A DNA stretch of 60,000 nt, taken from Bolinopsis microptera (Eukaryota; Ctenophora; Tentaculata; Lobata; Bolinopsidae). Both the position numbers and the translations under genes were made by a program. Positions 15,901 to 52,167 of this stretch are shown piece after piece. A model generated the notes under the pieces. It did no database searches and had not been told where the DNA came from. It saw only the letters and a program-made list of their open reading frames with translations. How positions within the stretch are numbered: the stretch's first letter is position 1; each line of letters starts with the position of its first letter. The stretch covers positions 21,914,270-21,974,269 of the forward strand of contig NC_087073.1 in NCBI RefSeq assembly GCF_026151205.1. Direction: 5' to 3'.

Positions 15901-18900
15901 AATCCCGAGAATGCAGATGCAGGGTAAATTAAAGAACAAAGAAATCGTACATGTGACTCGGAGATTCAAGGAGAAGTGGAGCCCTAATGGCCTCGATAGA
16001 CAGTTTAGTTTCTAATCTTGATTGACGTTGGGTTTTATATCATAAGTTTATATGCATGTCAGTATTAGTTCAGTATTTTAGGGTAGTATTTTTTAAAATA
16101 TTAATATACGACATTTAGTACAGCAGGGTAGTGCAGAGAGATTAGTTTCACACCTCTGTTTTAGCTACAGGGAGGATAGTTAAAGATATTGTTTAGAGCA
16201 GAGAGTTTTGGGGGGACAGAGAGTTCATTTTAACATCTCTGTTTTGGTTATCAGAGAGTTCAGTTTAACACCTCTGTTTTGATTACTAGAAGGATAGTTT
16301 AGGAAATTGTTTATAGATTGCTCGGAGATTGTTTATACTTTCTGGGGATATTTAGGAGTTGAGCTATTGAAGGGAGGTTACCCTTTTTGGTTTGAGTACA
16401 ACTGAAGTTACAGTTTAAGTTTACAGTTAAAAGGTTAAAGACCTAGGATATTTGTATTATTGAGGTATTATATTGAGGAACACTGAGATATTGTATTTAC
16501 AATTCTTAACGGTTTAATCAATTTGAAGTACTTTCCCTTGTCACCTTCCTGAACCAAATTGTAAGGGAAAGAGCCTTTTATCAACTGGAGCCTGATACGG
16601 GACTTTTTGTCTGTCTGTATGTACGACCGCCCACGTGCAAATTAGGTAAAAAGCAAAAGGTTGCAAAGTAACCATGGCAACGGTTTCGTTACACGCACGT
16701 GCACGTGCAAAGATTTTAAAAACGGCATTTTTATCCTTTTATCGGTTTTGTAATAACTTAATAATTACGTTGTGTTCAGTGCGAGCTACATTTAAATCGG
16801 CTGTATCTTCGGTTGAGACGGATATTTTTTGATGTGATAAAAACTGACTGCCATTAAGCTATTATGGTATCAAATAAGACTATTACCTCCCTCCTTGCGA
16901 CCACGGGCGTTCTAGTAAACTATAAAGCACAACACTCATACTCGAAAAAAGCTTTAAAATCGTACAAAAACAAGAATTGTGCCCGTTGTTTCGTTTTGAC
17001 GGACGCTAGATTTCCATTCACTATAACTATAAGTATTGGATTGTATCGAATTGTATCGATTTGTATTGGATTGTATAGAATTGTCGATCTTCGAATTGTT
17101 GATCTTCGAGATTGTTCTAAAGAGGCCCCGACAGTTGAAACAAACTTCAATCGATGTATGTTCGGACACTGATTCCGAATCACCCCCCATGACATAGGGT
17201 TAAAATGCTCCCCTGACGAGATATTGGCGAAAAACTGTCTCGATCACGCGATATGACCGTATAACTGTATAAGGAAGTTAGTCTAATTTCTCGTTAGGGT
17301 TAGGCCTAGGGACTATAAGGGTTTCCGCATTAGCTTTTGTTAAGGATTGGGTTAGGGTTAGGGTTGGGATCAGACTAGAGGGTTAGGGTTTCGAATAGTC
17401 GTTCAGGGCCAGCTAGAGAACGGGTCGAAAAAGTCACATGACAGTCGAGTGTAGAGTGATTAATCATCATCCTCGAATTGTATTGGATTGTATCGAATTG
17501 TATCGAATTGTATCGAATTTATCGATTTGTATCGATTTGTATTTGATTGTATCGAATTATATCAACCCTGTGGTTATTATCAAAGTGTATATTATGATCT
17601 CCGGCAAGGACAATATAATTAATAAATAACATCAAAAACATTATCAAAAAGAGCAAACTAGCACTGAGGGGTTGATCATCAAGAAGGTACGGTCTATGGA
17701 AGACTATTGTTCTTTAAGTTAACAACTCTTGGTATTTCAGTAATTTGTTTGTCCATTAGCTGGTATGAAGAACGTTTTGAACACGTATGTTTGTGTAAGA
17801 CTGCTGTCATCAAGTCTCCTGATCTGATCTGCAACTATTTAACAAGTTCCAGTTGAAACAATAAAAGAATTTGCCAATAAATCTACAGTGTCGATTGAGA
17901 TTCACAAACAAAGGGGAACACCAAAACTGTAAAATTTTGAAAAAGACTCGACCTTATAACTCTGAATTGGTCCTATAGTTCAGTAATTAGAAGACATTGA
18001 TTCTTAACTTTGGGATTTTGACTTTTGATTTTTGACTTTTGATTCAAATTCAATCTCCATATCTACTACATACTGTAACACATATATCAAATGCTCACTA
18101 GCTCTTCATCTGAGTATCGAGTTCTTGCCTAGCCTATAGTAATTAAGAAAGTGTCTGTTTGAATTTCCAACGTTCCACGTGCAGTCGTGCAAATTATGTA
18201 AAAAGCAAAAGGTTGCATAGCAACGGTGTTGGAACGCTCACGTGAAAATCATGCAATGGTTGTCAGAACGGCATTTTGATCGGTTTTGTGGTAATTACAT
18301 TGTGTATAAAGTGTTTTACATTTAAAACAGCTGTATCTTCGTTTTGCAGAATGGATATATTTTGATACGATAAAAACTGAAAAAAAAACTACCAACTCCC
18401 TTCCCCGAGCCTTCTAGTAGTATATAATATTAGTATAGTATAGTATAATACAGATAATACCATAATAGTTATTAGTTAATAGCACGACAAGTGTGTCATA
18501 TAAGCTAAATAAGCTGTTAGCTGATAAGAGAACAATAAACTACAAACACACAAGAACATGACGTTTACTATGTGGCAAGTATCTATTGAGTTAAGTGGCG
18601 GAAAAATTTTATCTGGAGACACATTGCTATTGCATTTTCACTATTGGGTACTTTCGCTTTTGGGTTATAGTTATAACTATAACCCAAAAGCGAAAGTACC
18701 CAATAGCGAAAAACAAACAATGTATAAATACATTGTTTGCACATTTTCTGTACATCGTGTACGATGCCTTTTTCGCTACAGAATGAACACTTGGATATGG
18801 TAGATGATGCTATGGTTGAGAATGGCGAGTTCCTTACGGAATATGCGAACCAGATACACATGGCGGCTGTCAGTATTTTCAAGGAGATTAGAAGTAAAAT

Positions 18901-21900
18901 TGGTGTTCAACACAACGATGATGTGCGATTTGATGAACTGAACCAAAGTGGTTAGTGTGCTGTATTCTGGAGAATTATTGTGGTCCATTGTTACAATCCG
19001 CGGTCCGCCGTTGAAACAGCTACCGACAACAGCAAGTTCAGGAAAGAAAAAGTAGCAGATACAAATAAAATCATAGCGAGATTAAAATCTTTTCGCCTCT
19101 GTTGAAAAACACGTGTAAAAACGCCTTTGCACCGAAGAAGATCCAAGCTGCAGCAAAAAGGGTTGCCCTCGAAGGAGATCGAAGTCGTTAGCTCAGAGAA
19201 GGAGCCTTGAGAGTTATATATTTTCTATAAATACAATATTATATGTTTTAATTCTTTAATTAATTAATTTTTTGCTAGGGCCCAATGTTATTGCGGGTGT
19301 GGTATTTCTTACTGCACACTACCGTGTTTTGGTTACCCCTCTTTCAATACATAATTTGGGTTTCGATATACTGGGATACTGGAAATTTGAGCTACATTGG
19401 TTTCCTCCTTTTATATCTGGGTTTATTTAGAAGCATGCAATTATGTATAATTATGTATTGTTTGAAAAGATTTAGATTTTTTTTAAATTAGACGAAGGCA
19501 GCCTTATATCGTGGTCACCTATTTGCTTCGTGAAATGTGGAATTTACTGTTCAACATGAAAGGTGATTTATTTGAATAGTTTGTTGTTTATGGCCTTCAA
19601 CCCCACCTCTCACCCACCTTTCAATTCCACCTCTTACCCCTCTCACCCCCACCTCTCATTTCTCACCCCAACTCTCAACCCCACCTCTCACCCCACCTCT
19701 CACCCCCTCTCACCCCACCTCTTACCCCCACCTCTCACCCCCTCTCACCCCACCTCTCACCCCACCTCTCACGCCCTCTCAACCCCACCTCTCACCCCAC
19801 CTCTCACCCCCACCTCTCACCCCCTTTCACCCCCACCTCTCACCCCCTCTCACCCCACCTCTCACCCCACCTCTCACCCCCACCTCTCACCCCCTCTCAC
19901 CCCATCTCTCACCCCCACCTCTCACCCCCTCTCACCCCACCTCTCACCCCCACCTCTCACCCCCTCTCACCCCACCTCTCACCCCCACCTCTCACGCCCT
20001 CTCAACCCCAACTCTTGCCCTATTTTTACCCCACCTCTTACCCACCTCTCACCCCCATCTCACCCCACCTTTCACCCCCTCTCAACCCCACCTCTCACCC
20101 CCTCTCACCCCCGGCCCCTTCTCACCCCCGCCCCCCCCCCCCCGACCCCCTCACCCCAACTCTTACCCCATCTCACCCCCACCTCTCACCCACCTCTCAC
20201 CCCAATATCAGTCCCCATCTCTCACCCCCACCTCTCACCCACCTCTCAACCCCAGGTAGAGAACGAGTACGGTAGTAACCCCGCCTGTGATAAACCCTAC
20301 CTCCAGTCCCTGACCCAGCACTTTAGAGCTACTCTAGGAGATGACATACTCCTTTACACAGTAGACGGACCAGGTTAGAGGGGGGGGGGGGGGGGGGTAT
20401 AACTAGTGGAGATCAGGTTAGAGGGGGGGGGGGTGTAACTAGTATGGACCAGGTTAGAGGGGGGGGGGGTGTAACTAGTATGGACCAGGTTAGAGGGGGG
20501 GGGGTATAACTAGTAGGGACCAGGTTAGAGGCCCAGGTATAAAGGAGAGAACGTTAACACTTGCTGCCCAGGTATAAAGGAGATAACGTTAACACTTGCT
20601 GCCCAGGTATAAAAGAGATAACGTTAACACTTGCTGCCCAGTTATAAAGGAGATAACGTTAACACTTGCTGCCCAGGTATAAAGGAGATAACGTTAACAC
20701 TTGCTGCCCAGGTATAAAAGAGATAACGTTAACACTTGCTGCCCAGGTATAAAGGAGAGAACGTTAACACTTGCTGCCCAGTTATAAAGGAGATAACGTT
20801 AACACTTGCTGCCCAGGTATAAAGGAGATAACGTTAACACTTGCTGCCCAGGTATAAAGGAGATAACGTTAACACTTGCTGCCCAGGTATAAAGGAGATA
20901 ACGTTAACACTTGCTGCCCAGTTATAAAGGAGATAACGTTAACACTTGCTGCCCAGGTATAAAGGAGATAACGTTAACACTTGCTGCCCAGGTATAAAGG
21001 AGATAACGTTAACACTTGCTGCCCAGGTATAAAGGAGATAACGTTAACACTTGCTGCCCAGGTATAAAGGAGATAACGTTAACACTTGCTGCCCAGGTAT
21101 AAAGGAGATAACGTTAACACTTGCTGCCCAGGTATAAAGGAGAGAACGTTAACATGAACACTTGCTGCCCAGGTATAAAAGAGAGAACGTTAACACTCGC
21201 TGCCCAGGTATAAAGGAGATAACGTTAACACTCGCTGCCCAGGTATAAAGGAGATAACGTTAACACTCGCTGCCCAGGTATAAAGGAGATAACGTTAACA
21301 CTTGCTGCCCAGGTATAAAGGAGATAACGTTAACACTTGCTGCCCAGTTATAAAGGAGATAACGTTAACACTTGCTGCCCAGGTATAAAGGAGATAACGT
21401 TAACACTTGCTGCCCAGGTATAAAGGAGATAACGTTAACACTTGCTGCCCAGGTATAAAGGAGATAACGTTAACACTTGCTGCCCAGGTATAAAGGAGAT
21501 AACGTTAACACTTGCTGCCCAGGTATAAAGGAGATAACGTTAACACTTGCTGCCCAGGTATAAAGGAGAGAACGTTAACACTTGCTGCCCAGGTATAAAA
21601 GAGAGAACGTTAACACTCGCTGCCCAGGTATAAAGGAGATAACGTTAACACTCGCTGTCCAGGTATAAAGGAGATAACGTTAACACTCGCTGCCCAGGTA
21701 TAAAGGAGATAACGTTAACACTCGCTGTCCAGGTATAAAGGAGATAACGTTAACACTTGCTGCCCAGGTATAAAAGAGATAACGTTAACAGGTATAAAGG
21801 AGATAACGTTAACAGGTATAAAGGAGATAACGTTAACAGGTATAAAGGAGATAACGTTAACAGGTATAAAGGAGATAACGTTAACAGGTATAAAGGAGAT

Positions 21901-24900
21901 AACGTTAACACCTGCTCACCAGGTAAAGGAATGCTGAACTGCGGAACGCTGCCTGAACTTTACAACACTGTTGATTTCGGAGGAGGAAACATCAGCTCCC
22001 ACTTTGATATTCAGGCTCAGTATAACTCAGGAGGACCCCCTGTTAATATCGAGTTCTATCCTGGGTGGCTCTCTCACTGGGGCTCTAAGTTCCCTTCTAA
22101 ATCTAGAACTGCCACTGCAAGTAAGAATGCAAATATAGCTAATGGCTATTTGTAAACTTTTTATAAAACCTGAAGGTGCAATGATGAAATATTAACTAAT
22201 AGTGTAACCTGTGCCTACTATTAACTATTAACTATAGTAATGTAAATAGTAGTAAACTCACATATCGTCTTCTCAGTGGCGTAACAAAAGGCCTCGCAGT
22301 CCCCGCTATGGGAGGGCATTTTACCCGAATTGTAAGACTTTTTGTCGAAAATTCATCCGATTTCGCAGCAAAATTCCGGCCAACTTAACGTACATGTTTC
22401 AGATAAGCTAGATGAGATGTTAGCGTATGGAGCCAGTATTAATATGTATATGTTTCACGGCGGCTCTAATTTTGGGTACACGAGTGGAGCTAAGGGAAAC
22501 AAAGACGCTACTAACTTTGTACCACATACCACCAGTTACGACTATGACGCTCCGCTCAATGAAGCTGGAGACACTACTCTTAAATACTGGGACATTAGGG
22601 CCGTCAACAGGTAATTATAACTCAGTAAGTACGGTCCTGTATACGAGGTTCCTAAGTAATTATAACTTAGTAAGTACGGTCCTGTATACGAGGTTCCTAA
22701 GTAATTATAACTCAGTAAGTACGGTCCTGTATACGAGGTTCCTAATTAATTATAACTCAGAAAGTACGGTCCTGTATACGAGGTTCCTAAATAATTATAA
22801 CTCAGTAAGTACGGTCCTGTATACGAGGTTCCTAAGTAATTATAACTCAGTAAGTACGGTCCTGTATACGAGGTTCCTAAGTAATTATAACTCAGTAAGT
22901 ACGGTCCTGTATACGAGGTTCCTAAGTAATTATAACTCAGTAAGTACGGTCCTGTATACGAGGTTCCTAAGTAATTATAACTCAGTAAGTACGGTCCTGT
23001 ATACGAGGTTCCTAAGTAATTATAACTCAGTAAGTACGGTCCTGTATATGAGGTTCCTAAGTAATTATAACTCAGTAAGTACGGTCCTGTATACGAGGTT
23101 CCTAAGAACTCCACGAAGAAGAGTTACGGTAAAGTGGAGATGGTATATTGGGGGAGCATCCTGAACGAGAGCTTTATAAATCAGTGTGGAAGTGAAACGT
23201 ACAATGTGCAGCCACTCTCAATGGAGGAAAACAAACAGGTTCTTTGAAATTATTAGTAGTAGTAATAGTGGTACTTGAAAATAAGATTACTAAACCAGTT
23301 CAAAATAAAATGTAGAACTGAAATATTATTTATTTGATATAATTTTTCTGAAATGTTTTTAAATTTACAGACGAATGGTGTTATAGTATACAGCAAGATG
23401 ATAGAAAGTGCTGGGACCCTGACAGTCGGTAAAGTGCGAGACAGAGCTTACTTATTGCTGGATAACAAACTGGTTTTTACAATTAAAGGAAAAGATTCCA
23501 ACGTATCTGTGGGGTGAGTGTGTCTGGGGAGATTATATTAAATCCACAATTCATTTTTAATTCAGTTATTTTGATCGGTATAAGCTAATAGTTGTTTTAC
23601 AATAGCTTATTCAGAGCTACTATTTTTAAATAAGAGAGGAAACCAATAATAGTGTAATAGCACTGTTACGAGGTACTGTATTGAAACCATGTTCTGAAGG
23701 GATTCTTGAGACATACAAATGATACAATAATTTGTAGAACAGAAGTTTTCAAAAATCATGTGTTAATCGTCTTCATTCTGTTCTGTAAAATTAAAATGTT
23801 TGAAACTTAATCAGTGCTAGATTTAATGTTCACGAGGTGGCTTACACCCGTCCACCAGAATGTAGAAGAAGCCTCTAGGTTTGAGCTGATCCCCCTCACC
23901 AGCTGGTTCTCTGTCCCCGTAGATAACAATATAGGGACCCTGATCCTGACAACTCAACACTCTTGTCTCTACTGTTCCCCTGATGGCGTGTTTGAAGGGT
24001 ACTAAACGGTTAGGGCGACCCTTCTCTTCCCATCCACTCCTTTATCTCCTCTTCTGATAGTATCTTCAAACTTACTTTAAAGTCCGTGTCCTCAACTTCT
24101 GGATCTTCTTTTCCTTTCACAACCTTTTTCAAGTGAATCTCCGATCCGAAGGGAGGTTTGATACCACCGGTAGCAACTGTAAAACTGAAACTATAAGTCT
24201 CATTCAGAGTAGCTACATGGAACTTCTTCACAAAAATAAATGGTTTATTAGGTCCTGGGTCCGGTGTCTTGCAGCCCTCCAGTTCTATGAAGAAGAATGC
24301 CTTGCCGTGGTGGTGGGCTGTAGTAGTGTCCTCCCCCTCCTCATTCTGTCTCCTGTCTCCGTATCTGACTAGGTAAGGAGCCAGATCACGGCACTTCAGT
24401 CTCCCTGTCTTCACTTTACCTACCACTACGTGACTGTAATGCTGCCCCTCAGACCGGCTCTCATTCCACTCCGCCACTTCTTCTTCAGAGAGTGTCTTCA
24501 GGGACCAGCTCTCATTCCACTCCGCTACTTCTTCTTCAGAGAGTGTCTTCAGAGAAATCTCGAAGTCAGTATCCACAAGTTTAGGATGAACGTTCCTTCT
24601 CACCACCTTTTTCAGGTTAATTTTACATTTGCACAGAGGTTTCGTGCCGGCAACTGCAAACTTGAAACTGTAGTTCTCGTTTCTGTCAGCTCTGTGTATT
24701 GACTTCACAAATATAGCAGGTTCCTCACCAGGATCAGGGCACTCATCCTTATCACAAGCAGTGACCTGGTGGCAAGTGGCAAGTGCCACAATAGTTAGAA
24801 CCAGTATCATTAGGTGCTAAGGTTGTGGGAGGAGAAGGTATAAACTTATAAACGCCAGTCGAATGGTCTGAGCAGAGAGAGAGGGCTGATCTTTTAAAGT

Positions 24901-26278
24901 TGTTTAAACACCTGGTCGTATAATATCGTTAAAAACTAACTAGTTCAAACTCCTCCTCATCAGTCAGCTCCATATGTCCACTTCTTTTGTTCAACATTTT
25001 GCCAGCTTCTTTATTTTCACAGCGTGGTGAAAATTGAAAGATTTGATTTGCAAACGAGAAAAGTCACACTTTAAAATGAACTGTATCCTACAAAGCAGCA
25101 TTTTGATGAGTTTCAGTTATAACGAAGACCCATACCGATATTAATCGCTCAAACTCAGTACGTTTCAATACTAACTGTCGTGGAATAAAAACACCAGCTC
25201 AACTGTTTTAGTTCAGAATATTAAACCAAATAGTGTGCCTATAATTTAATTTTAATCCTGTGTAATCCTTTCAGGTTAACACCAGGAAGACTTGACATTG
25301 TAGTTTTAAGCGACGGGCATATGAACACAGGTTATATCTAACTCACTGTCTCTCAATTATCAACATTGTAAATTAATAAAATTTGGATCTGACATTTTCT
25401 CCCGTTTTATTTTTATTTCCATATTATGTTCTTAATTTCCCCAGAAGGTAATTTTACCATAGTAACGTGCTACCATATAAGGTCATGTTACCATAGTAAC
25501 ACTGCCATATAAGGTCATGTTACCATAGTAACACTACCATATAAGGTCATGTTCACATGCTGGATCCTCGCAATTACATGAAGGGAATAACAGAACCAGT
25601 CCTGTTCGGAACAGAACCTATGCTAAACTGGGTGGTAACCCTCCTCCCTCTAGACTCTATGAGCTGTCTCCACAACACCACCCCTCCGCATAACCAACCC
25701 TTCCTCCCCGGCTCTCTCTACATCGGTCAGATAGAAACAACATGCGACACAGCTACAGACACATTTGTGGACACTACTGGGTGGGGGAAGGGGGTTACCT
25801 TCTTCCAGACGCTCAATCTGGGGAGACACTGGCCTCTTGCAGGACCACAACTCACTCTGTACGCTCCTGGCCCTTTCTGTCGGGGTCAACAGGTAAGTGG
25901 GGATCAGTAGTAATGTTTAATGCTTAATTATTGGATAAGAAGTGAGTGGGGATCATTAGTAATGTTTAATTATTGGATAAGAAGGAAATATATTACAATA
26001 ACAAATTCAATTGTCATACAAAACAATTAATACTAGAACAACAACATTTAATTAATTTAATTGTATTGTTATGGGAAAAATTTAAGCTGAAATGTAAAAT
26101 CCTAAATATGCTTTGAAAATCGAATTAATTGATCTCTTTTTGATTCAATGATAAGCTCCCTGTTCAGAGCGACTCTAGAATTACGATACACATGGTGGAA
26201 TTTGAGCAGGCCTCTGATCACGTGCTGCTGACTGATAAGAGTAATCTTCGAGGACCCGTCGACCCTTCTCAGCTCTAG
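9917..26278 (+). CDS. GLB1: Lysosomal beta-galactosidase, GH35 family (5' end outside window)
   Basis: Eleven exons read in frame with matching phases: 9917-10038, 10217-10289, 10971-11079, 20256-20373, 21923-22120, 22403-22610, 23076-23238, 23371-23513, 25275-25330, 25546-25892, 26168-26278 (stop TAG), about 549 residues. The first exon gives [16 protein letters not shown] and ends in the LLRPG motif. VENEYGS (20256) carries the predicted acid/base glutamate and [13 protein letters not shown] the predicted nucleophile glutamate. [14 protein letters not shown] and [16 protein letters not shown] follow as in animal GLB1. Known role of the family: removal of terminal beta-galactose from glycans and glycolipids in lysosomes. 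Compared with human GLB1 (677 aa) about 100 N-terminal residues, including the signal peptide, lie upstream. Introns are swollen by tandem repeats; the 11080-20255 intron is 9.2 kb. The start of the exon at 25546 is the least certain because the acceptor lies in a small tandem repeat. Confidence 0.93.
10603..10955. repeat. Tandem repeat in beta-galactosidase intron
   Basis: About nine copies of a 27-37 bp unit with core cacaagattagttaactcta, alternating between versions ending acactaa and accgtaattag. It ends about 20 bp before the 3' splice site at 10970. It explains the otherwise empty stretch between the exons ending 10289 and starting 10971; nothing else is seen there. Confidence 0.9.
11097..11335 (+). 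repeat. Interspersed repeat family A, copy 1
   Basis: Starts gtacgaccgcccacgtgcaa, then cacatgcaaagattgt, cattttgatcggtt, aaatcggctgtatcttcggt and gatattttttgatgcgat, and ends near ccacgggctttcta. The same ordered blocks recur at 11361, 12635, 16605 and 18165, always on the + strand, with about 15-25% divergence by eye. No coding capacity is seen. It is probably a short non-autonomous element; its class is not clear. Confidence 0.8.
11361..12610 (+). repeat. Interspersed repeat family A, copy 2, split by a LINE insertion
   Basis: The left part (11361-11429) has the family start gtacgaccgcccacgtgcaa and the aaaaggttccatagca block. The right part (12358-12610) resumes with atagcaacggtgtttta and continues to ccacgggctttctag. 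The two parts join correctly once the retrotransposon fragment at 11430-12357 is removed; atagca occurs on both sides as a likely target-site duplication. Confidence 0.8.
11430..12357 (-). mobile_element. 5'-truncated non-LTR retrotransposon (reverse transcriptase C-terminal part)
   Basis: An open minus-strand frame (11476-12384, the first residues belonging to the host repeat) encodes the end of a LINE reverse transcriptase. It has the catalytic DYADD box, then [27 protein letters not shown] and the common LINE tail [17 protein letters not shown] with RSRGRPRK. The upstream RT half, endonuclease and ORF1 are missing, as expected from 5' truncation during target-primed reverse transcription. 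The 3' end is not poly(A) but a short repeat (acatgtaacatgta type) at 11430-11452. The frame is uninterrupted, so the insertion may be recent. The clade is not assigned. Confidence 0.88.
12635..12895 (+). repeat. Interspersed repeat family A, copy 3
   Basis: Begins with a tctgtctgtctgtat lead and gtacgaccgcccacgtgcaa, then accatggtaacggtgttgaa, cgcacgtgcacatgcaaag and attttgatcgacttt. It diverges from the other copies after about 12790. The tctgtctgt lead is shared with the copy at 16605. Confidence 0.7.
13010..14730 (+). pseudogene. Decayed virus-like envelope glycoprotein gene
   Basis: Successive fragments in changing frames look like one degraded membrane glycoprotein. 13010 opens with a signal-peptide-like hydrophobic start followed by a basic patch. 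13205-13501 and 13509-13763 are charged segments with heptad-like spacing, possibly coiled coil. 13862-14242 has several cysteines. 14596-14670 is a strongly hydrophobic membrane anchor with a short cytoplasmic tail ending in a stop at 14728. In-frame stops occur near 13128 and 13162, and the frame changes before 13509, before 13862 and again before the anchor. The order signal peptide, heptads, cysteines, anchor is that of a class I type fusion envelope of an endogenous retrovirus-like element. This is inference from layout; no homologue is recognised. It is not functional as read. Confidence 0.4.
14642..15124 (+). pseudogene. Charged ORF next to the envelope-like remnant, unknown
   Basis: An open frame of about 160 codons overlaps the anchor region in another frame, so only the part from about 14735 is likely meaningful. 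That part is rich in Glu, Asp, Lys and Arg in its second half and ends in a very basic run ([10 protein letters not shown]). No family is recognised. It sits between the envelope-like fragments and the duplicated block at 15296, in the same orientation, and probably belongs to the same decayed element. Confidence 0.3.
15285..15940 (+). repeat. Direct duplication of a ~320-bp degenerate coding block
   Basis: 15285-15628 and 15629-15940 are two diverged copies. Both contain [31 protein letters not shown] and SGLKSVIP, and both end with a block containing aacggaattccgttaa. Stops and small indels differ between copies (copy 1 has an in-frame stop near 15376; copy 2 has a shift after SGLKSVIP). 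It looks like an old element gene duplicated in tandem after or during decay. Confidence 0.7.
15941..16604. other. Non-coding tail of the decayed element
   Basis: No open frame. Holds two or three diverged copies of a short block with acctctgttttgg and agagagttcagttt (about 16120-16290). It could be an old long terminal repeat or 3' region of the envelope-like element, but no matching second copy is visible on the left side, so it is left unnamed. Confidence 0.3.
16605..16922 (+). repeat. Interspersed repeat family A, copy 4
   Basis: Carries all blocks of the family in order: tgtctgtctgtatgtacgac lead, cacgtgcaaattaggtaaaa, accatggcaacggtttcgtt, cgcacgtgcacgtgcaaag, aaatcggctgtatcttcggt, gatattttttgatgtgat and ccacgggcgttctag. 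It is one of the two most complete copies. Confidence 0.8.
17030..17110. repeat. 10-bp AT-rich repeat (attgtatcga), left block
   Basis: Degenerate repeats of attgtatcga and attgtattgg. A second block of the same repeat lies at 17475-17565, so the two blocks flank the family B element at 17111-17470. Confidence 0.8.
17111..17470 (-). repeat. Interspersed repeat family B, copy 1 (contains telomere-like GGGTTA runs)
   Basis: Shared landmarks with 39762-40228 (opposite orientation) and 59617-59850: gattccgaatcaccccccat, atattggcgaaaaactgtct, gttagggttagggtt runs, and cagtcgagtgtagagtgatt. It has no coding capacity. The GGGTTA hexamers sit inside every copy, so they were carried by the element and do not mark a chromosome end. 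Orientation is given relative to the other two copies. Confidence 0.75.
17475..17565. repeat. 10-bp AT-rich repeat (attgtatcga), right block
   Basis: Degenerate attgtatcga and tttgtatcga units, matching the block at 17030-17110 on the other side of the family B element. Confidence 0.8.
18165..18425 (+). repeat. Interspersed repeat family A, copy 5
   Basis: Lacks the cleaner start but has aaaaagcaaaaggttgcata, gcaacggtgttggaacg, gaacggcattttgatcggtt and ctgtatcttcg, and ends near cgagccttctagtag. The 17566-18164 stretch before it is AT-rich with no recognisable feature. Confidence 0.7.
18641..18706. repeat. Perfect 66-bp palindrome
   Basis: 33-bp arms meet with no spacer: the left arm starts ctattgggtactttcgcttt and the right arm is its exact reverse complement. 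A smaller palindrome (acaatgta-taaa-tacattgt) follows at 18718-18737. Because the sequence is self-complementary, identical short open frames appear on both strands; these are not genes. Confidence 0.95.
18737..18955 (+). CDS. Short ORF of unknown origin after the palindrome
   Basis: 72 codons; the part after the palindrome (from about 18781) has ordinary-looking amphipathic protein sequence ([17 protein letters not shown] and so on). It lies inside the large beta-galactosidase intron. No family, splice signals or second copy seen. It could be a transposon fragment or chance. The rest of this stretch (18956-19600) holds nothing recognisable. Confidence 0.15.
   Translation: MHIFCTSCTMPFSLQNEHLDMVDDAMVENGEFLTEYANQIHMAAVSIFKEIRSKIGVQHNDDVRFDELNQSG
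19600..20255 (+). repeat. Pyrimidine-tract minisatellite ending at a 3' splice site
   Basis: About 45 irregular copies of a 12-14 bp unit (cacctctcacccc and variants), running directly into the acceptor cacctctcaaccccag at 20255 of the exon VENEYGS. In effect the polypyrimidine tract has been amplified to over 600 nt. It also gives a long open frame of Pro, Ser, Thr and His that has no coding meaning. Confidence 0.9.
20366..20528 (+). repeat. 5' splice junction repeat with G-runs
   Basis: The exon end plus donor (ggaccag|gttagagg) occurs four more times, spaced by poly-G runs of 8-18 and tataactagt or tgtaactagtat. The repeated part includes exon bases, so the unit arose from the exon-intron junction at 20373. 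Confidence 0.9.
20529..21922 (+). repeat. 35-bp minisatellite with AG|GT in every unit
   Basis: About 36 copies of a 35-bp unit that contains gcccaggtataaaggagata and acgttaacacttgct, then five shortened copies (21784-21910, lacking the cttgctgccc part), ending in cctgctcaccag|gtaaagg, the real 3' splice site before 21923. Each unit thus carries an acceptor-like cccag next to a gt donor. Variants are a in place of g in aaaggag, gttat for ggtat, and cgc for tgc. Confidence 0.95.
22275..22402 (+). mobile_element. Fragment with hAT-like terminus (cagtggcgtaac)
   Basis: cagtggcgtaac at 22275 matches the terminal inverted repeat of the element at 44002-44288. The rest (22290-22385) is not clearly similar and no second terminus is visible. 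It lies in the intron just before the exon at 22403. Confidence 0.4.
22611..23106 (+). repeat. 45-bp minisatellite made of a 3' splice site plus exon start
   Basis: Eleven copies of a 45-bp unit: intron part gtaattataactcag followed by exon part taagtacggtcctgtatacg and aggttcctaa. The last copy is the real 3' splice site (23075) and the first 31 bases of the exon 23076-23238. The unit length is a multiple of three with no stops in two frames, so long open frames appear on both strands; these are artefacts. Confidence 0.95.
23814..24005 (+). other. Unassigned open frame in intron
   Basis: 63 codons with protein-like composition ([16 protein letters not shown]). It lies in the beta-galactosidase intron 23514-25274, ends 4 bp from the opposite-strand gene, and does not match any segment expected in GLB1. 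Possibly a leftover exon of another gene or chance. Confidence 0.2.
24010..24810 (-). CDS. Secreted protein with two tandem homologous domains, unknown family, nested in GLB1 intron
   Basis: Single-exon ORF of 266 residues on the strand opposite to the host gene. It has a clear signal peptide ([19 protein letters not shown]). Domain 1 (about 32-170) and domain 2 (about 188-266) share the pattern IFVK-(S/K)-H, NE-YSF-F-VA, INLKKVV/IHLKKVV, DTDF, SLK-LSEEE. Domain 2 stops where domain 1 goes on for about 65 more residues, so the C-terminus may be truncated or continue in an unseen exon. A 51-bp tandem duplication repeats [16 protein letters not shown] inside domain 1. A TATA-like tttataag lies only about 35 bp upstream of the ATG. 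No known family is recognised. Two homologous domains with a signal peptide argue for a real gene. Confidence 0.65.
   Translation of the reverse strand: MILVLTIVALATCHQVTACDKDECPDPGEEPAIFVKSIHRADRNENYSFKFAVAGTKPLCKCKINLKKVVRRNVHPKLVDTDFEISLKTLSEEEVAEWNESWSLKTLSEEEVAEWNESRSEGQHYSHVVVGKVKTGRLKCRDLAPYLVRYGDRRQNEEGEDTTTAHHHGKAFFFIELEGCKTPDPGPNKPFIFVKKFHVATLNETYSFSFTVATGGIKPPFGSEIHLKKVVKGKEDPEVEDTDFKVSLKILSEEEIKEWMGREGSP
25455..25551 (+). repeat. ~37-bp tandem repeat at the acceptor of a GLB1 exon
   Basis: Three copies of accatagtaacactaccat followed by ataaggtcatgtt; the first copy is slightly longer. The only acceptor giving correct phase for the exon 25546-25892 is the ataag|gtcatg inside the last copy, so the repeated unit includes the 3' splice site. 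Confidence 0.75.
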
Positions 26279-26289
26279 AGGTATAAACT

Positions 26290-26380
26290 GTGATCACGAC
26301 ACGTGGTGTGTGACGTCACGACACGTGCTGCGACATCACGACACGTGGTGTGACGTCATGACGCGTGATATGACGTTACC
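26290..26380. repeat. Cluster of CACGTG and TGACGTCA motifs between convergent genes
   Basis: Four imperfect ~22-bp units with acgacacgtggtgtgtgacg, each carrying an E-box-like cacgtg or cacgcg and a CRE-like tgacgtca or tgacgtt. It lies 12 bp after the GLB1 stop. These could bind bHLH or bZIP factors, but the tandem origin makes chance amplification just as likely. Confidence 0.6.
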
Positions 26381-26401
26381 AACAACAATTCATCACAAAA
26401 A

Positions 26402-26591
26402 TCAATCATCTCCATCTTCTCCATCATCATCTCCCCAATCATTGTTATCAGTTTCATTAGAGTAAGAGTTCACACTGCGTCTTTGATTGTTTTTAGCACT
26501 GGTTGTTTTAAAAGCAAGTTTGGGTTTACTTGCGCTGGTTTCTCCCTCCTGTACGCTCCATCTGACGGTGTCTGAGTTAGTGGGTATATGC
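26402..26591 (-). CDS. Possible alternative last exon with acidic tail
   Basis: A minus-strand frame starts after a good acceptor (ctccccag) and ends DNNDWGDDDGEDGDD-stop. It lies downstream of the immunoglobulin-domain gene on the same strand. It needs a preceding exon ending in phase 2, which the exon at 26957-27100 does not offer without a new donor. It may be an alternative 3' exon or a separate small gene. 26592-26956 shows nothing else. Confidence 0.3.
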
Positions 26592-26956
26592 CTGGGGAGC
26601 ACAGTGGGTCATTCTCATGCTATAGTCGAGGTCTTGTTTCAATGCCAGACAATGATACCAGATTAAGGAAAGATTGAAGGTTCAGCTTTCTTGGTCTCAC
26701 AAGCTCTCACTACCAAACATTTTCCTCATTACACATCTAAAGGCTACAAATCTAGGACAATGCTATATTTAAGGTTTGCACTTGCAGGCTGACTAATTAA
26801 GGTAGAAATGATGCTGTTTGATTTACACTCTACACTGATCTACAGTGACTGGTACAATCAGTCCATCAAGCTTCACTCCAAGATGGGAGTAACAAGAACC
26901 ATTTCAAGCATTATCATTCTAAATGTAGTCTCAAACATTGTGAACACCATTGTAAC

Positions 26957-29900
26957 CTACAAGTCTTTGGGGATGAACTGAGGGACTTGAACATCCAGTA
27001 TCATCGTGCATGCAGTGGTTTTACTTCCAGTACCGTCGTTATATTTAATCTGGCATGTGTAGATGCCAGCATCTTTCTTCCGGAGACTTACTATGTGCAC
27101 CTGGGAGGGTGATTGTTTACTATACGGTAACTAAACAGTTACTATACGGTTACTAAACGGCAAATAAACGGTTACTAAACGGTTACTAAACAGTTACTAT
27201 ACGGTTACTAAACGGCAAATAAACGGTTACTAAACGGTTACTAAACAGTTACTATACGGTTACTAAACGGCAAATAAACGGTTACTAAACGGTTACTAAA
27301 CAGTTACTATACGGTTACTAAACGGCAAATAAACGGTAACTAAACGGTAGCTAAACGGTTACTAAACGGTAACTATACGGTAACTAAACGGTAACTATAC
27401 GGCAACTAAACGGTAGCTAAACGGTTACTAAACGGCAAATAAACGGTAGCTAAACCGTATCTAAACGGTTACTAAACGGTTACTAAACTTGATTCATTCT
27501 GAATTGAACCTTAATTGCGCCAATAATTTGATAAATGGGGATCTCACCTCCCTGCGGTCGTCTACGAATCTGACCCTGTATCGGGGACTAATCTTCTTGT
27601 GGTTGTGTAACCAGGTTATGTGTTGTTTCCTCATGTTCCGGGGAATTATATCCACTTTTAAAGAGATGGACTCCTTCACCATCCCTCTGATGATTCCTTC
27701 GTCATTTAGTGGGATTATCCTCAACTCTGTGTCTAGAGCTGCAGGGTGGATTACAATCAAAATGTGGGATTGTAGTAGTATTAGTAGTTCAGGTACCTAG
27801 TTCAGTAAGTAGTTTAGTTACCTAGTTCAGTAAGTAGTTCAGGTACATAGTTCAGTAAATAGTTCAGGTACCTAGTTCAGGTACCTAGTTCAGTAAGTAG
27901 TTCAGGGACCTAGTTCAGTAAGTAGTTCAGGTACCTAGTTCAGTAAGTAGTTCAGGGACCTAGTTCAGTAAGTAGTTCAGGTACCTAGTTCAGTAAGTAT
28001 AGTTCAGGGACCTAGTTCAGTAAGTAGTTCAGGTACCTAGTTCAGTAAGTAGTTCAGGTACCTAGTTCAGTAAATAGTTCAGGTACCTAGTTCAGTAAGT
28101 AGTTCAGGTACCTAGTTCAGTAAATAGTTCAGGTACCTAGTTCAGTAAGTAGTTCAGGGACCTAGTTCAGTAAGTAGTTCAGGTACCTAGTTCAGTAAGT
28201 AGTTCAGGGACCTAGTTCAGTAAATAGTTCAGGGACCTAGTTCAGTAAGTAGTTCAGGGACCTAGTTCAGTAAGTAGTTCAGGTACCTAGTTCAGTAAGT
28301 AGTTCAGGTACCTAGTTCAGTAAATAGTTCAGGGACCTAGTTCAGTAAGTAGTTCAGGGACCTAGTTCAGTAAGTAGTTCAGGTACCTAGTTCAGTAAGT
28401 AGTTCAGGGACCTAGTTCAGTAAGTAGTTCAGGTACCTAGTTCAGTAAGTATAGTTCAGGGACCTAGTTCAGTAAGTAGTTCAGGTACCTAGTTCAGTAA
28501 GTAGTTCAGGTACCTAGTTCAGTAAATAGTTCAGGTACCTAGTTCAGTAAGTAGTTCAGGTACTTAGTTCAGTAAATAGTTCAGGTACCTAGTTCAGTAA
28601 GTAGTTCAGGTACCTAGTTCAGTAAGTAGTTCAGGTACATAGTTCAGTAAGTAGTTCAGGGACCTAGTTCAGTAAGTAGTTTAGGTACCTAGTTCAGTAA
28701 GTATAGTTCAGGGACCTAGTTCAGTAAGTAGTTCAGGTACCTAATTCAGTAAGTAGTTCAGGTACCTAATTCAGTAAGTAGTTCAGGTACCTAGTTCAGT
28801 AAGTAGTTCAGGTACCTAGTTCAGTAAGTAGTTCAGGTACCTAGTTCAGTAAGTAGTTCAGGTACCTAGTTCAGTAAGTAGTTCAGGTACCTAGTTCAGT
28901 AAGTAGTTCAGGTACCTAGTTCAGTAAGTAGTTCAGGTACCTAGTTCAGTAAGTAGTTCAGGTACCTAGTTCAGTAAGTAGTTCAGGTACCTAGTTCAGT
29001 AAGTAGTTCAGGTACCTAGTTCAGTAAGTAGTTCAGGTACCTAGTTCAGTAAATAGTTCAGGTACCTAGTTCAGTAAGTAGTTCAGGTACCTAGTTCAGT
29101 AAGTAGTTCAGGTACCTAGTTCAGTAAGTAGTTCAGGTACCTAGTTCAGTAAGTAGTTCAGGTACCTAGTTCAGTAAGTAGTTCAGGTACCTAGTTCAGT
29201 AAGTAGTTCAGGTACCTAGTTCAGTAAGTAGTTCAGGTACCTAGTTCAGTAAGTAGTTCAGGTACCTAGTTCAGTAAGTAGTTCAGGTACCTAGTTCAGT
29301 AAGTAGTTCAGGTACCTAGTTCAGTAAGTAGTTCAGGTACCTAGTTCAGTAAGTAGTTCAGGTACCTAGTTCAGTAAGTAGTTCAGGTACCTAGTTCAGT
29401 AAGTAGTTCAGGTACCTAGTTCAGTAAGTAGTTCAGGTACCTAGTTCAGTAAGTAGTTCAGGTACCTAGTTCAGTAAGTAGTTCAGGTACCTAGTTCAGT
29501 AAGTAGTTCAGGTACCTAGTTCAGTAAGTAGTTCAGGTACCTAGTTCAGTAAGTAGTTCAGGTACCTAGTTCAGTAAGTAGTTCAGGTACCTAGTTCAGT
29601 AAGTAGTTCAGGTACCTAGTTCAGTAAGTAGTTCAGGTACCTAGTTCAGTAAGTAGTTCAGGTACCTAGTTCAGTAAGTAGTTCAGGTACCTAGTTCAGT
29701 AAGTAGTTCAGGTACCTAGTTCAGTAAGTAGTTCAGGTACCTAGTTCAGTAAGTAGTTCAGGTACCTAGTTCAGTAAGTAGTTCAGGTACCTAGTTCAGT
29801 AAGTAGTTCAGGTACCTAGTTCAGTAAGTAGTTCAGGTACCTAGTTCAGTAAGTAGTTCAGGTACCTAGTTCAGTAAGTAGTTCAGGTACCTAGTTCAGT

Positions 29901-32900
29901 AAATAGTTCAGGTACCTAGTTCAGTAAGTAGTTCAGGTACCTAGTTCAGTAAGTAGTTCAGGTACCTAGTTCAGTAAGTAGTTCAGGTACCTAGTTCAGT
30001 AAGTAGTTCAGGTACCTAGTTCAGTAAGTAGTTCAGGTACCTAGTTCAGTAAGTAGTTCAGGTACCTAGTTCAGTAAGTAGTTCAGGTACCTAGTTCAGT
30101 AAGTAGTTCAGGTACCTAGTTCAGTAAGTAGTTCAGGTACCTAGTTCAGTAAGTAGTTCAGGTACCTAGTTCAGTAAGTAGTTCAGGTACCTAGTTCAGT
30201 AAGTAGTTCAGGTACCTAGTTCAGTAAGTAGTTCAGGTACCTAGTTCAGTAAGTAGTTCAGGTACCTAGTTCAGTAAGTAGTTCAGGTACCTAGTTCAGT
30301 AAGTAGTTCAGGTACCTAGTTCAGTAAGTAGTTCAGGTACCTAGTTCAGTAAGTAGTTCAGGTACCTAGTTCAGTAAGTAGTTCAGGTACCTAGTTCAGT
30401 AAGTAGTTCAGGTACCTAGTTCAGTAAGTAGTTCAGGTACCTAGTTCAGTAAGTAGTTCAGGTACCTAGTTCAGTAAGTAGTTCAGGTACCTAGTTCAGT
30501 AAGTAGTTCAGGTACCTAGTTCAGTAAGTAGTTCAGGTACCTAGTTCAGTAAGTAGTTCAGGTACCTAGTTCAGTAAGTAGTTCAGGTACCTAGTTCAGT
30601 AAGTAGTTCAGGTACCTAGTTCAGTAAGTAGTTCAGGTACCTAGTTCAGTAAGTAGTTCAGGTACCTAGTTCAGTAAGTAGTTCAGGTACCTAGTTCAGT
30701 AAGTAGTTCAGGTACCTAGTTCAGTAAGTAGTTCAGGTACCTAGTTCAGTAAGTAGTTCAGGTACCTAGTTCAGTAAGTAGTTCAGGTACCTAGTTCAGT
30801 AAGTAGTTCAGGTACCTAGTTCAGTAAGTAGTTCAGGTACCTAGTTCAGTAAGTAGTTCAGGTACCTAGTTCAGTAAGTAGTTCAGGTACCTAGTTCAGT
30901 AAGTAGTTCAGGTACCTAGTTCAGTAAGTAGTTCAGGTACCTAGTTCAGTAAGTAGTTCAGGTACCTAGTTCAGTAAGTAGTTCAGGGACCTAGTTCAGT
31001 AAGTAGTTCAGGTACCTAGTTCAGTAAGTAGTTCAGGTACCTAGTTCAGTAAGTAGTTCAGGTACCTAGTTCAGTAAGTAGTTCAGGTACCTAGTTCAGT
31101 AAGTAGTTCAGGTACCTAGTTCAGTAAGTAGTTCAGGTACCTAGTTCAGTAAGTAGTTCAGGTACCTAGTTCAGTAAGTAGTTCAGGTACCTAGTTCAGT
31201 AAGTAGTTCAGGTACCTAGTTCAGTAAGTAGTTCAGGTACCTAGTTCAGTAAGTAGTTCAGGTACCTAGTTCAGTAAGTAGTTCAGGTACCTAGTTCAGT
31301 AAGTAGTTCAGGTACCTAGTTCAGTAAGTAGTTCAGGTACCTAGTTCAGTAAGTAGTTCAGGTACCTAGTTCAGTAAGTAGTTCAGGTACCTAGTTCAGT
31401 AAGTAGTTCAGGTACCTAGTTCAGTAAGTAGTTCAGGTACCTAGTTCAGTAAGTAGTTCAGGTACCTAGTTCAGTAAGTAGTTCAGGTACCTAGTTCAGT
31501 AAGTAGTTCAGGTACCTAGTTCAGTAAGTAGTTCAGGTACCTAGTTCAGTAAGTAGTTCAGGTACCTAGTTCAGTAAGTAGTTCAGGTACCTAGTTCAGT
31601 AAGTAGTTCAGGTACCTAGTTCAGTAAGTAGTTCAGGTACCTAGTTCAGTAAGTAGTTCAGGTACCTAGTTCAGTAAGTAGTTCAGGTACCTAGTTCAGT
31701 AAGTAGTTCAGGTACCTAGTTCAGTAAGTAGTTCAGGGACCTAGTTCAGTAAGTAGTTCAGGTACCTAGTTCAGTAAGTAGTTCAGGTACCTAGTTCAGT
31801 AAGTAGTTCAGGTACCTAGTTCAGTAAGTAGTTCAGGTACCTAGTTCAGTAAGTAGTTCAGGTACCTAGTTCAGTAAGTAGTTCAGGTACCTAGTTCAGT
31901 AAGTAGTTCAGGTACCTAGTTCAGTAAGTAGTTCAGGTACCTAGTTCAGTAAGTAGTTCAGGTACCTAGTTCAGTAAGTAGTTTAGGTACCTAGTTCAGT
32001 AAGTAGTTCAGGTACCTAGTTCAGTAAGTAGTTCAGGTACCTAGTTCAGTAAGTAGTTCAGGTACCTAGTTCAGTAAGTAGTTCAGGTACCTAGTTCAGT
32101 AAGTATAGTTCAGGTACCTAGTTCAGTAAGTAGTTCAGGTACCTAGTTCAGTAAGTAGTTCAGGTACCTAGTTCAGTAAGTAGTTCAGGTACCTAGTTCA
32201 GTAAATAGTTCAGGTACCTAGTTCAGTAAGTAGTTCAGGTACCTAGTTCAGTAAATAGTTCAGGTACCTAGTTCAGTAAGTAGTTCTGGTACCTAGTTCA
32301 GTAAGTAGTTCAGGTACCTAGTTCAGTAAGTAGTTCAGGTACCTAGTTCAGTAAGTAGTTCAGGTACCTAGTTCAGTAAGTAGTTCAGGTACCTAGTTCA
32401 GTAAATAGTTCAGGTACCTAGTTCAGTAAATAGTTCAGGTACCTAGTTCAGTAAGTAGTTCAGGTACCTAGTTCAGTAAGTAGTTCAGGTACCTAGTTCA
32501 GTAAGTAGTTCAGGTACCTAGTTCAGTAAGTAGTTCAGGTACCTAGTTCAGTAAATAGTTCAGGTACATAGTTCAGTAAGTAGTTCAGGTACCTAGTTCA
32601 GTAAGTAGTTCAGGTACCTAGTTCAGTAAGTAGTTCAGGTACCTAGTTCAGTAAGTAGTTCAGGGACCTAATTCAGTAAGTAGTTCAGGTACCTAGTTCA
32701 GTAAGTAGTTTAGGATTAACTACTGATTGTGTAGTTCAGGGTTCCGGTTAGTAGCCAGGAAACTCACCGCTTTGTCTGAAGGTTAGAGTTTTAGTCTGGT
32801 TAGCCAGGTCCTCGCTGCTGTCTTGTTGTTCAAACTCATCCCCTGACACCGGTAGCGGGGAGACTGGTGCTGGAGACACACTTCTCTTGGTCCTCCCATC

Positions 32901-35900
32901 GTATGTCTGGGAGAGGGGGTCACGTGTATTTGGGAGAGGGGTCACGTGTATTTGGGAGAGGGGTCACGTGTATTTGGGAGAGGGGTCACGTGTATTTGGG
33001 AGAGGGGGTCACGTGTATTTGAGAGAGGGGGTCATGTGTATTTGGGAGAGGTTCGCGTGTATTTGGGAGAGGGGTCACGTGTATTTGGGAGAGGGGTCAC
33101 GTGTATTTGGGAGAGGGGGTCACGTGTATTTGAGAGAGGGGGTCATGTGTATTTGGGAGAGGTTCACGTGTATTTGGGAGAGGGGTCACGTGTATTTGGG
33201 AGAGGGGTCACGTGTATTTGGGAGAGGGTAACGTATATTTGGGAGAGGGGTCACGTGTATTTGGGAGAGGGTCACGTATATTTGGGAGAGGGGTCACGTG
33301 TATTTGGGAGAGGGGTCACGTGTATTTAGGAGAGGGGTCACGTGTATTTGTTTCTAACTAACCGAATGTCCAGCTCCAAAGTCACTAAAGTCAGATCTGG
33401 AACTCTGCCTGTCCCTCTGAAACAGTTGGTAATTTGTTTTTCCCCCTTTTACTGTGGTTATAACTGTTTGCAATTAGATAATTGTTTGCAATTAGATCAT
33501 TGTCTTAGTGACAACAATATTGGCTTGTGTCTAGTTCTAAAGAAGTTTACCTCTACAGAAATATGGTTGTGTCTAGTTCTAAAGAAGTTTACCTCTACAG
33601 AAATATGGTTGATTTCAGGAGTTGAGGAGTGTCGGTGCACTAGATCAGTAGATTCAGCTCGTTCTAGAGTCAGGTAGCTAAAGGGTATTTGCAGATAAAT
33701 CAAATATTACGATGTATGGTAAAGATGAAGATCTTGAAGAAGCAGCTCGAATAGCAAACTTACGGTTAACTTACTGTTAACTTACTGTTAACTTACGGTT
33801 AACTTACTGTTAACTTACTGTTAACTTACTGTTAACTTACTGTTAACTTACTGTTAACTTACTGTTAACTTACTGTTAACTTACTGTTAACTTACTGTTA
33901 ACTTACTGTTAACTTACTGTTAACTTACTGTTAACTTACGGTTAACTTACTGTTAACTTACTGTTAACTTACTTGATAGCACTCTCTAGAGTCATGCCTG
34001 CTGGTAGTAGTGACAGATCAGCCACACTCAGCGGTTTCCTGCTTTCTTTCTCCACTGTAAGTCCTGTTGAGTAGGCTGCAGGGCCGCACTCTTCACTTCT
34101 TAGTGTGCTGTGGTGGGCAGGGACTTCTCTGTGGTGAGCAGGGGCTTCTCTGTGGTGAGCAGGGGCTTCCTGTCGTAGAGGCATTATGTCCCCCACAGAT
34201 TTAGTCACCTGAATATCAGATCTTTAGAGCAGAGTCTGATGATATATTGTACTTTGATGGGGAAGTTAAAATAAAATAAAATGCAAGGCCTAAATCCAAA
34301 TGCTTACCTGATGCTCTTGTGTTTACCAGGTTAAAATGCCCCATGTTCTTGTGTTTACCTGGTTAAAATGCCCCATGTTCTTGTGTTTACCTGGTTGAAA
34401 TGTCCCATGTTCTTGTGTTTACCTGGTTAAAATGCCCCATGTTCTTGTGTTTACCTGGTTAAAATGCCCCATGTTCTTGTGTTTACCTGGTTAAAATGCC
34501 CCATGTTCTTGTGTTTACCTGGTTAAAATGCCCCATGTTCTTGTGTTTTCCAGGGGGGCACCCACAGTACTCGCAACCTAGTCCCTTGTCCACCTCGTAT
34601 TGTTCACAGTCTACACACACATTACACGGACCTCGTATTGTCCCCCTCCTGTCCACATTAGACACTGTCTGGCCAGTTCCTGAATTATTAGGAATACTGA
34701 ATTTCTAATTAATTGTGTAATTTACGTGATGATTCCTTCATTAATAATTAATCATGGTGTACCCCACATTCAATCTGGTGCTCCCAAATGAGCTAAAAAA
34801 GAGTCCCAAGTATTAACCTAATGTTCGGACGCTAATGAAATGGTCCCTACTGCTCATCATTTTATTATCTGCTTCACACAACACTCAACACAACAACACT
34901 AACACGAAACTTGTGGTAAGCAGTGCAGGGGTTCGCTTCCTTGTTTTATACGAGCTGGTCATGTAAATCATTTACTCTCGATCTACTCAGTCTCAAGTGA
35001 TCGTACTATCGCGTACTATGCGGTAAAATCCTAGCCACAGAAATTGTTTGAAAAAATAACAAACTTTCTAAAAAAGTTTCTTGTAGGACTACCTCGTATT
35101 TTTAGTATCGTTTTAGTTTCTGCTCTTGTACATAATAGGATATTTGTTTCGTCCAATATATCCACCGGCACGATTTAGGCCCTCAAGCTTCAGTTCTTTT
35201 TTATCTAACACTTATTTTACTTCGGACAATCACAGCCGAAGGATTCAATTATACATTAGGCCAGTGACGGTAGTGTGTACCATACTTTCTTCGCCCGAGA
35301 TTTTTGCAATGGGCAGGTCCTCATTTAACCCTCACATCCCATTTCTCGAGCATTCGGCTGAGTGGAACGGGGGCTGCATAGATCACTCGGATCCTTAGCT
35401 GAGCGTCAACGACTGGTTGACGCTCAGCCGGGAATCGAACCTGGTACCTCGCGATTAACAAGCAGGCAGACTAACCAACTAAGCCACTCGGCTAGTCTGA
35501 TTACTAAAATGATAGCCCCCGTGGTAAGAAAAAGGTATTGTCGGGACGATTGAGGGACTAGAAAGAGTTATTTAACTTGTTTAACTAACTGAGAAACTAA
35601 CCGTAAAGGTCACGTGTTATGTCATGTGACACTGCAGAGAGAGTAGACAGATAATCAGGATCCCACTCACAGGAAGTGTTCACACTGGTTTTAGAAGCGT
35701 CACGTGACACTGCGTCACGTGACAGATTAGGTTGTGAAACTGATATCCTGCTCTCCACTTCCTTCTCAGCTTCCTTCTCAGCTTCCTCCTCGACGGTATT
35801 TTCTCGTGACTGAGTATATTTGAACTCAGCTAGAAGGGGGTTATCCGTGATGTCAGCAGAGTTAATAACTCCCGCTCCCGCTCCAGCAAGCAGAGCTGTG

Positions 35901-48904: not shown

Positions 48905-49365
48905 TGTTACCATGGTTACCACCAATGTAACGAACTGTAGATATGTGTTACTAATGTTCACATTACAAATTCCTTTGGATCTGTTTTAAGATCGAGAAAT
49001 TAACTCTTCAACTTGAACTCAGTATACACTATAGAAAATCTATTAATAATTATTTACATTCAGTTTTGTTGTCCCGCTTTGCACATTATATGTATTAATT
49101 GAAGAATTAGACAACAACAATCATTAATTATATACATTATAATATACCTTCATAAATAGTGGTCTTATTATTTTTATTATAACAAGGAGAATAAGACACA
49201 AAAATGCTGGAAATGAAAATACATGTCTGCAGTTTGCGGCCAGTAATTAGTCGTTATATATATCTAGTAGGATATATTATATAATTACAGGCTTACAGCA
49301 CATGTAACGGTTGTTGATATAATAGCAGTAATAATATATAAAGTAATAACGTTTACAACATTGCA

Positions 49366-51773: not shown

Positions 51774-52167
51774 TCAGCTACTGTTGAATTTATTTATTTT
51801 CAAAGATTTTAAAATATAGTAGTATATATATATTATATAATGGTATATAGTAGTTATTATATACTAAACTAACCAGTCCCTCAATCAATTATGATTATTT
51901 CTACCATTATTTTGCAGTGTTACCATGGTTACAAGGGTAATTGTAAACGATTTGGTAAATTAGAGGTCAATTGTAATGATTGTAAATTTTTGATCTTTGA
52001 TATTTATTAGCGTGCTTATTTCAATAACAGTTAGAATAGTACAAACTACCCCAATTAATTTATATAAATACATGTAACTTATGAAGATGCTTAGTTATTT
52101 CTTCATATCAATACAAGTACTAACCACTACTTAATCTATAGGTAAACTGAGCCCAACATGTTGCACG

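Follow-up and report, generated by a model that had tools for sequence, protein, structure and literature searches.

Tandem arrays that span exon-intron borders in the ctenophore Bolinopsis microptera resemble the mirage minisatellites of amphioxus

We analysed a 60,000-nucleotide stretch of the Bolinopsis microptera genome (contig C2:21914270-21974269 of an assembly of 264.65 Mb in 232 contigs; hereafter the window) in which the introns of two genes carry tandem arrays at their splice junctions, with units that in several cases include the end of the neighbouring exon. Arrays of the latter kind are referred to here as exon-spanning arrays or mirages, after the amphioxus repeats with which they are compared below. 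The first gene encodes a GLB1-like beta-galactosidase on the forward strand (9917..26278) and was modelled from protein matches and GT-AG introns as 11 exons (9917-10038, 10217-10289, 10971-11079, 20256-20373, 21923-22120, 22403-22610, 23076-23238, 23371-23513, 25275-25330, 25546-25892 and 26168-26278), which join into a single frame of 548 residues. Residues 1-442 match PDB beta-galactosidases at E 6.4e-96, and the 5' part of the gene was not found within the window. Its nearest protein, P0001 (627 aa; identity 69-70%), shows no gap where introns 3, 4, 6 and 9 interrupt the coding sequence; gaps of 1-3 residues fall at other places, the junction of intron 2 and the neighbourhood of intron 10 among them. 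Because those four junctions are gap-free, the exon bases in the GLB1 units can be taken as old coding sequence. The second gene (gene 2), on the reverse strand (32768..36991), was modelled from its open frame and splice signals as six exons (36991-35602, 34679-34519, 34208-33973, 33677-33593, 33416-33363 and 32906-32768) that yield one open frame of 688 residues; the open reading frames (ORFs) of exons 1 and 2 retrieved no Pfam match.

Arrays were called with Tandem Repeats Finder (TRF), and junction copies were scored as ungapped matches of a junction-spanning segment to a copy within the same intron. An earlier note on this DNA had named nine places in these genes where an array meets a junction, and this held throughout, with a TRF array present at all nine and each touching a splice junction or sitting at most 13 nt away. 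The unit includes a clear stretch of exon in five of the nine (7 to 34 exon nt) and hardly any or none in the other four (0 to 3 nt). In GLB1 intron 6, the acceptor mirage (22611..23106, + strand) consists of 11.0 copies of a 45-mer whose unit joins 15 intron-end bases, GTAATTATAACTCAG, to 30 exon nt. This 496-nt array begins at the donor GT and reaches 31 nt inside the next exon, leaving no part of the intron that is not array, and its exon part aligns gap-free to P0001. GLB1 intron 4 is nearly all array: on its donor side (20374..20531, +) lies a 36-mer repeated 4.1 times (GGACCAG/GTTAGAGGGG, the slash marking the junction; 7 exon nt), the first base of which, per TRF, is 13 nt into the intron, and on its acceptor side (20531..21922, +) a 35-mer repeated 35.8 times and a 24-mer repeated 6.1 times (CAG/GTATAAAGGAG) end 12 nt short of the acceptor, the ungapped match covering 3 exon nt. 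The acceptor mirage of intron 9 (25445..25553, +) is a 32-mer repeated 3.3 times (ATAAG/GTCATGTT; 8 exon nt), and the acceptor side of intron 3 (19597..20254, +) carries a C/T-rich array with 0 exon bases that stops 1 nt short of the exon.

The gene-2 arrays are all on the reverse strand. The donor mirage of intron 2 (34311..34548) is a 32-mer, GTAAACACAAGAACATGGGGCATTTTAACCAG, repeated 7.4 times, the first copy of which is formed by the exon's last bases; the match covers 34 of 36 nt (score 31, two mismatches) and, with the 31 nt at GLB1 intron 6, bears out the roughly 30 exon bases that had been reported for 22611-23106 and 34304-34551. The donor mirage of intron 4 (33516..33611) is a 42-mer repeated 2.2 times that combines 19 exon nt with intron sequence, the donor array of intron 3 (33757..33973) is an 11-mer, GTAAGTTAACA, repeated 19.7 times with the donor, intron sequence and 1 exon nt, and the acceptor array of intron 5 (32908..33350) is a 22-mer repeated 20.1 times with a CCCCTCTCCCA tract and a match of 3 exon nt. 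In most arrays of the window, the copies diverge by point changes and indels.

Further repeats lie in and around the same two genes. Directly upstream of a GLB1 exon, a 19-mer array of 521 copies (1-9903) ends 13 nt before the exon; by eye, the acceptor-carrying sequence resembles a last degenerate copy, although no copy of the junction came up there in the ungapped test. Between GLB1 and gene 2 lies a 25-mer array of 197 copies (27785-32714) with CAGTAAGT and CAGGTACC, and GLB1 intron 3 contains, by eye, a dispersed repeat (CCCACGTGCAAATT ... GTATCTTCGGTTGAGA) at about 11100, 12650, 16620 and 18180.

A junction was counted as copied when its exon-side and intron-side scores were both at least 6. 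Under this rule 3 of the 21 GLB1 junctions passed, compared with 1 of 210 exon-swapped controls, and the sole passing control was another exon end, likewise in GACCAG, set at the intron 4 donor array; 2 of the 10 gene-2 junctions also passed, compared without a swapped control of their own. Junction copying is beyond chance. The position of the arrays, however, is not clearly special. When each array was slid randomly within its own intron with an overhang of up to one unit, 4.86 arrays were expected within 3 nt of a junction and 7 of 20 were observed (p 0.11), with p values of 0.15 and 0.22 at limits of 5 and 10 nt. The window does not prove that arrays favour junctions, and placement, being compatible with random, is not clearly beyond it; a targeted process is therefore unnecessary.

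Exon-spanning arrays also occur in four further genes, namely a myosin, an acetyl-CoA acetyltransferase-like gene, GNL2 and a dynein-AAA gene. The myosin donor mirage is a 40-mer repeated 22.1 times, with a unit of 30 exon and 10 intron bases, a match reaching 31 bases into the exon and copies that are 100% alike; its exon matches myosin structures with a best E of 7.6e-9. The acetyl-CoA acetyltransferase-like donor array is a 26-mer repeated 16.4 times with 6 exon nt, and its exons, once joined, hit PDB 2ib7 (E 1.7e-14). One GNL2 exon (PDB 6lss, E 4.2e-14) is arrayed at both ends, with 19 exon bases at the acceptor (5') and 24 at the donor (3'), while the donor array of a dynein exon with an AAA_7 domain (Pfam E 3.5e-7; no PDB match) copies 33 of 34 exon bases. 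The duplication of junction-bearing segments at donors and acceptors in six genes, with units matching the local exon, is supported. The earlier proposal of intron growth by junction duplication survives to that extent.

Two other origins of this structure can be weighed on the same evidence. Intronic minisatellites could have come first, with the exon border later shifted into them, and such exonisation is possible in principle given that the units carry splice-site-like sequence. However, the exon bases of the units are coding sequence common to relatives, as seen in the gap-free alignment of GLB1 intron 6 to P0001, in the GNL2 exon with its match to PDB 6lss and in the myosin exon, and we regard this order of events as very unlikely. 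The arrays could also be products of assembly; the myosin copies are identical, and the passages available from PMC3087553 report that one amphioxus mirage was misassembled in a draft genome. Against this, point changes and indels distinguish the copies in most arrays of the window, and the junction-array pattern occurs on contigs C1, C2 and C4, which makes an artefact highly improbable.

In order to gauge frequency, two gene families can be considered. The myosin-head sample comprised 73 exon matches in 169.5 kb of myosin-gene DNA, 9.8% of which is occupied by TRF arrays with units of at least 8 nt. An edge was counted when an 18-mer reaching at most 9 nt outside the exon match had a copy within 1.5 kb, and 9 of 146 edges qualified: one exon-spanning array, one purely intronic 8-mer array and seven single-copy cases. 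From 46 adjacent match pairs 30 introns were called, the donor of the mirage lying outside them, and 0 of their 60 junctions passed the 6-and-6 limits; the nearest had one copy, covering 9 bases of exon and 3 of intron. In the CCT genes, 22 adjacent pairs yielded 17 introns, and none of their 34 junctions had an exon-spanning array. In both families, some of the called introns score low and are possibly miscalled. Exon-spanning arrays are not common in these family samples, and the systematic amplification of junctions proposed earlier finds no backing in 1 of 146 myosin edges, 0 of 60 myosin-intron junctions, 0 of 34 CCT junctions or the placement p of 0.11. As a separate observation, the myosin locus L035 contains two adjacent versions of one exon (2812-3004 and 3055-3286; profile positions 105-167 and 102-167), which are perhaps mutually exclusive exons.

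Two arrays were searched against the whole genome. The GLB1 intron 6 array had one match in the 264.65 Mb, itself, in a search that skips simple repeats and common words, such that rarity is not proven; the gene-2 intron 2 array matched itself and one other place, 68-69% alike, which is the acetyl-CoA acetyltransferase-like donor array. Introner elements give rise to introns composed of repeated sequence, and the introns described here are likewise made of repeats, GLB1 intron 6 wholly and intron 4 nearly so, as would be expected if introner-like or other mobile elements carrying splice sites had been inserted and then expanded. Unlike introners and dispersed satellites, however, the two arrays searched show no dispersed family (no match does not prove rarity), and the units match the local exon. 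We consider such an insertion extremely improbable. Separately, the gene-2 array (34311-34548, -) and the locus L060, which lie in unrelated genes, both have donor arrays with CAG/GTAAACACAAG, perhaps a chance find.

The remaining alternative is a targeted process, in which duplication is favoured at donors, for example through DNA damage that accompanies transcription or splicing at the 5' splice site, and junctions act as systematic seeds. In its favour is a genome-wide search for motifs occurring three times with short gaps. The donor motif AGGTAA gave 19,996 matches and its reverse 1,125 (17.8-fold), compared with 5,707 and 1,591 (3.6-fold) for the neutral motif AGGATA and 3,351 and 1,085 (3.1-fold) for the acceptor motif TTTCAG; these counts are inflated because the matches are overlapping starts within long arrays. 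Single sites in 246 kb stand at 175:109 (1.6) for AGGTAA, 225:110 (2.0) for TTTCAG and 119:94 for AGGATA. The donor excess is the highest of the three motifs compared, and we treat it as no more than suggestive. Nevertheless, the neutral motif is itself 3.6-fold in excess, the acceptor motif lies little above its single-site ratio, and 0 of 3 acceptor-motif arrays read were found at an acceptor. In the 246 kb, AGGTAA triples form 3 clusters, one of which is a plain CCAGGTAA tract, and among 60 permutations AGGTAA is not first (AGTGAA 20 clusters, AGTAAG 6 and two others 4 each); CAGGTAAG gave no triple there. Part of the AGGTAA excess is CCAGGTAA tract, which need not be at donors.

Among the matches listed on contig C1, clusters are likewise few, with 6 for AGGTAA in 1.1 Mb and 9 for AGGATA in 2.8 Mb. 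Two of the six first-listed AGGTAA clusters are exon-spanning donors (GNL2 and dynein AAA_7), which favours targeting; by eye, the other four comprise a CCAGGTAA tract that sits some 200 nt into a putative intron, a cluster beside a putative exon on the opposite strand, one without a visible exon and one in a stretch that is all array. The putative exons at the first two of these four retrieved no Pfam match. As a rough guess, two exon-spanning events per 1.1 Mb would scale to hundreds genome-wide. With array placement in the window also compatible with random (p 0.11), we judge a targeted process unlikely. The broader proposal that donors are preferred minisatellite seeds through duplication tied to transcription or splicing, with hundreds of introns growing from their own junctions and some, such as GLB1 intron 6, wholly renewed, strikes us as conceivable though doubtful. 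Also on C1, a 30-mer array (2294645-2295699, -) has the unit TTTCAG/AGAGATAACAG/GTAATT with an acceptor-donor spacing of 11 nt, and no coding exon is evident in the flank read.

The many equivalent splice sites that the earlier note envisaged for each intron are also doubtful. Inner sites were followed at 54 positions, 10 in GLB1 intron 6, 2 in intron 9, 6, 19 and 1 in gene-2 introns 2, 3 and 4, and 16 in the acetyl-CoA acetyltransferase-like array (within 450 nt); in 53 of these, use of the inner copy brings a premature stop into the reading frame, and the protein therefore needs the exon-proximal copy. This tally leaves out the GNL2, dynein and myosin arrays as well as GLB1 intron 4, which was followed for 3 steps from its donor and 8 from its acceptor, the latter intron because fixed steps miss irregular copies, with most steps there missing GT or AG. 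The exon-proximal copy is probably the one that is spliced.

We therefore favour, as the probable origin of these arrays, chance tandem duplication across junctions followed by neutral growth, giving mirage-type minisatellites with no splice-site-seeking machinery. At the start, a local tandem duplication of a short segment falls by chance across the border of an exon and an intron, as the units of exon end plus intron matching the local exon indicate. The extra copies would land on the intron side and be spliced out while the exon-proximal site is used, and such a duplication would be close to neutral because the protein is unchanged. The array may then expand through slippage or unequal exchange, as minisatellites ordinarily do. 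Selection would mostly remove duplications within coding exons, which would make junction-spanning duplications the most easily surviving class to touch an exon. The outcome would be intron growth seeded by the gene's own junction in a minisatellite-rich genome. Some points weigh against this account. With the inner donor of gene-2 intron 4 the frame remains open and would gain 14 residues, the choice of the exon-proximal copy is drawn from reading frames, no homologue was found for gene-2 residues 440-688 and hence none backs the gene-2 exons, and the 17.8-fold excess of AGGTAA triples, at face value, exceeds what random seeding from 1.6-fold single sites would give.

Elsewhere in the window, an 807-codon open frame (49350-51773) includes a 69-mer array of 21 copies that keeps the frame, so arrays may also occupy coding exons; the downstream part of this frame retrieved no Pfam or PDB match. 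Three further ORFs have recognisable domains: Peptidase_S8/MBTP1_N at 52135-53226, RRM_1 at 56309-56677, and PBP, with an in-frame 15-mer repeat, at 58899-59420.

Tandem repeats are abundant in another ctenophore, Hormiphora, in which the relevant passage of PMC8527503 gives 14 Mb (13%) as called by TRF. No description of junction arrays was found in the ctenophore literature as represented by titles and the starts of abstracts, with few subscription journals covered, and the tandem-repeat and intron passages of PMC8527503, PMC11797021, PMC10232365 and PMC12221973 do not mention them. A related idea is the Rogers model of intron gain by tandem duplication, reviewed in the sections consulted of PMC4974935 along with ATP2A1, potato RdRp and repeated 24-bp segments in fission yeast. 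As in that model, AGGT- or junction-bearing segments are duplicated and turned intronic here; unlike it, existing introns seem to grow. The best candidate for the birth of a new intron is GLB1 intron 6, which consists of nothing but units, although 15 nt of the unit are non-exon.

The closest known system is the amphioxus (lancelet) mirage, and the earlier note's remark that such arrays lack a standard description does not stand, the same structure being set out in the mirage passages of PMC3087553 and PMC3902484. These describe tandem units lying across the boundary of exon and intron, at its 5' as well as its 3' form, many of them with AG/GT signals, and Adh3 and reverse transcription PCR (RT-PCR) data suggesting that mirages leave splicing undisturbed; TnC and PGBD5 are added as cases in PMC3902484. 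Length differences between haplotypes or arising somatically are a further mark of the class. Here too the units span the boundary, in GLB1, gene 2 and the other genes, and both boundaries are involved, at GLB1 donors and acceptors and at both ends of the GNL2 exon. Unlike the amphioxus cases, the arrays occur in a distant animal and reach 11 copies in GLB1 and 22 in myosin, compared with 6 and 3 units in the BflGb6 haplotypes as given in the part of the literature consulted; both ends of a single GNL2 exon are arrayed, five exon-spanning arrays fall within one 60-kb window, and splicing is judged here from reading frames, in the amphioxus passages from RT-PCR. Where an intron is filled with near-identical decoy sites, the way the spliceosome chooses among copies is put to a natural test. 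The density of mirages in the window makes the class worth testing genome-wide, and in this genome one can count how often junction arrays arise, how they influence the choice of splice site and what part they play when introns grow or are born. The arrays add members from a distant animal to the mirage class, a kind known but little noted, and show that minisatellites spanning junctions also occur outside lancelets.

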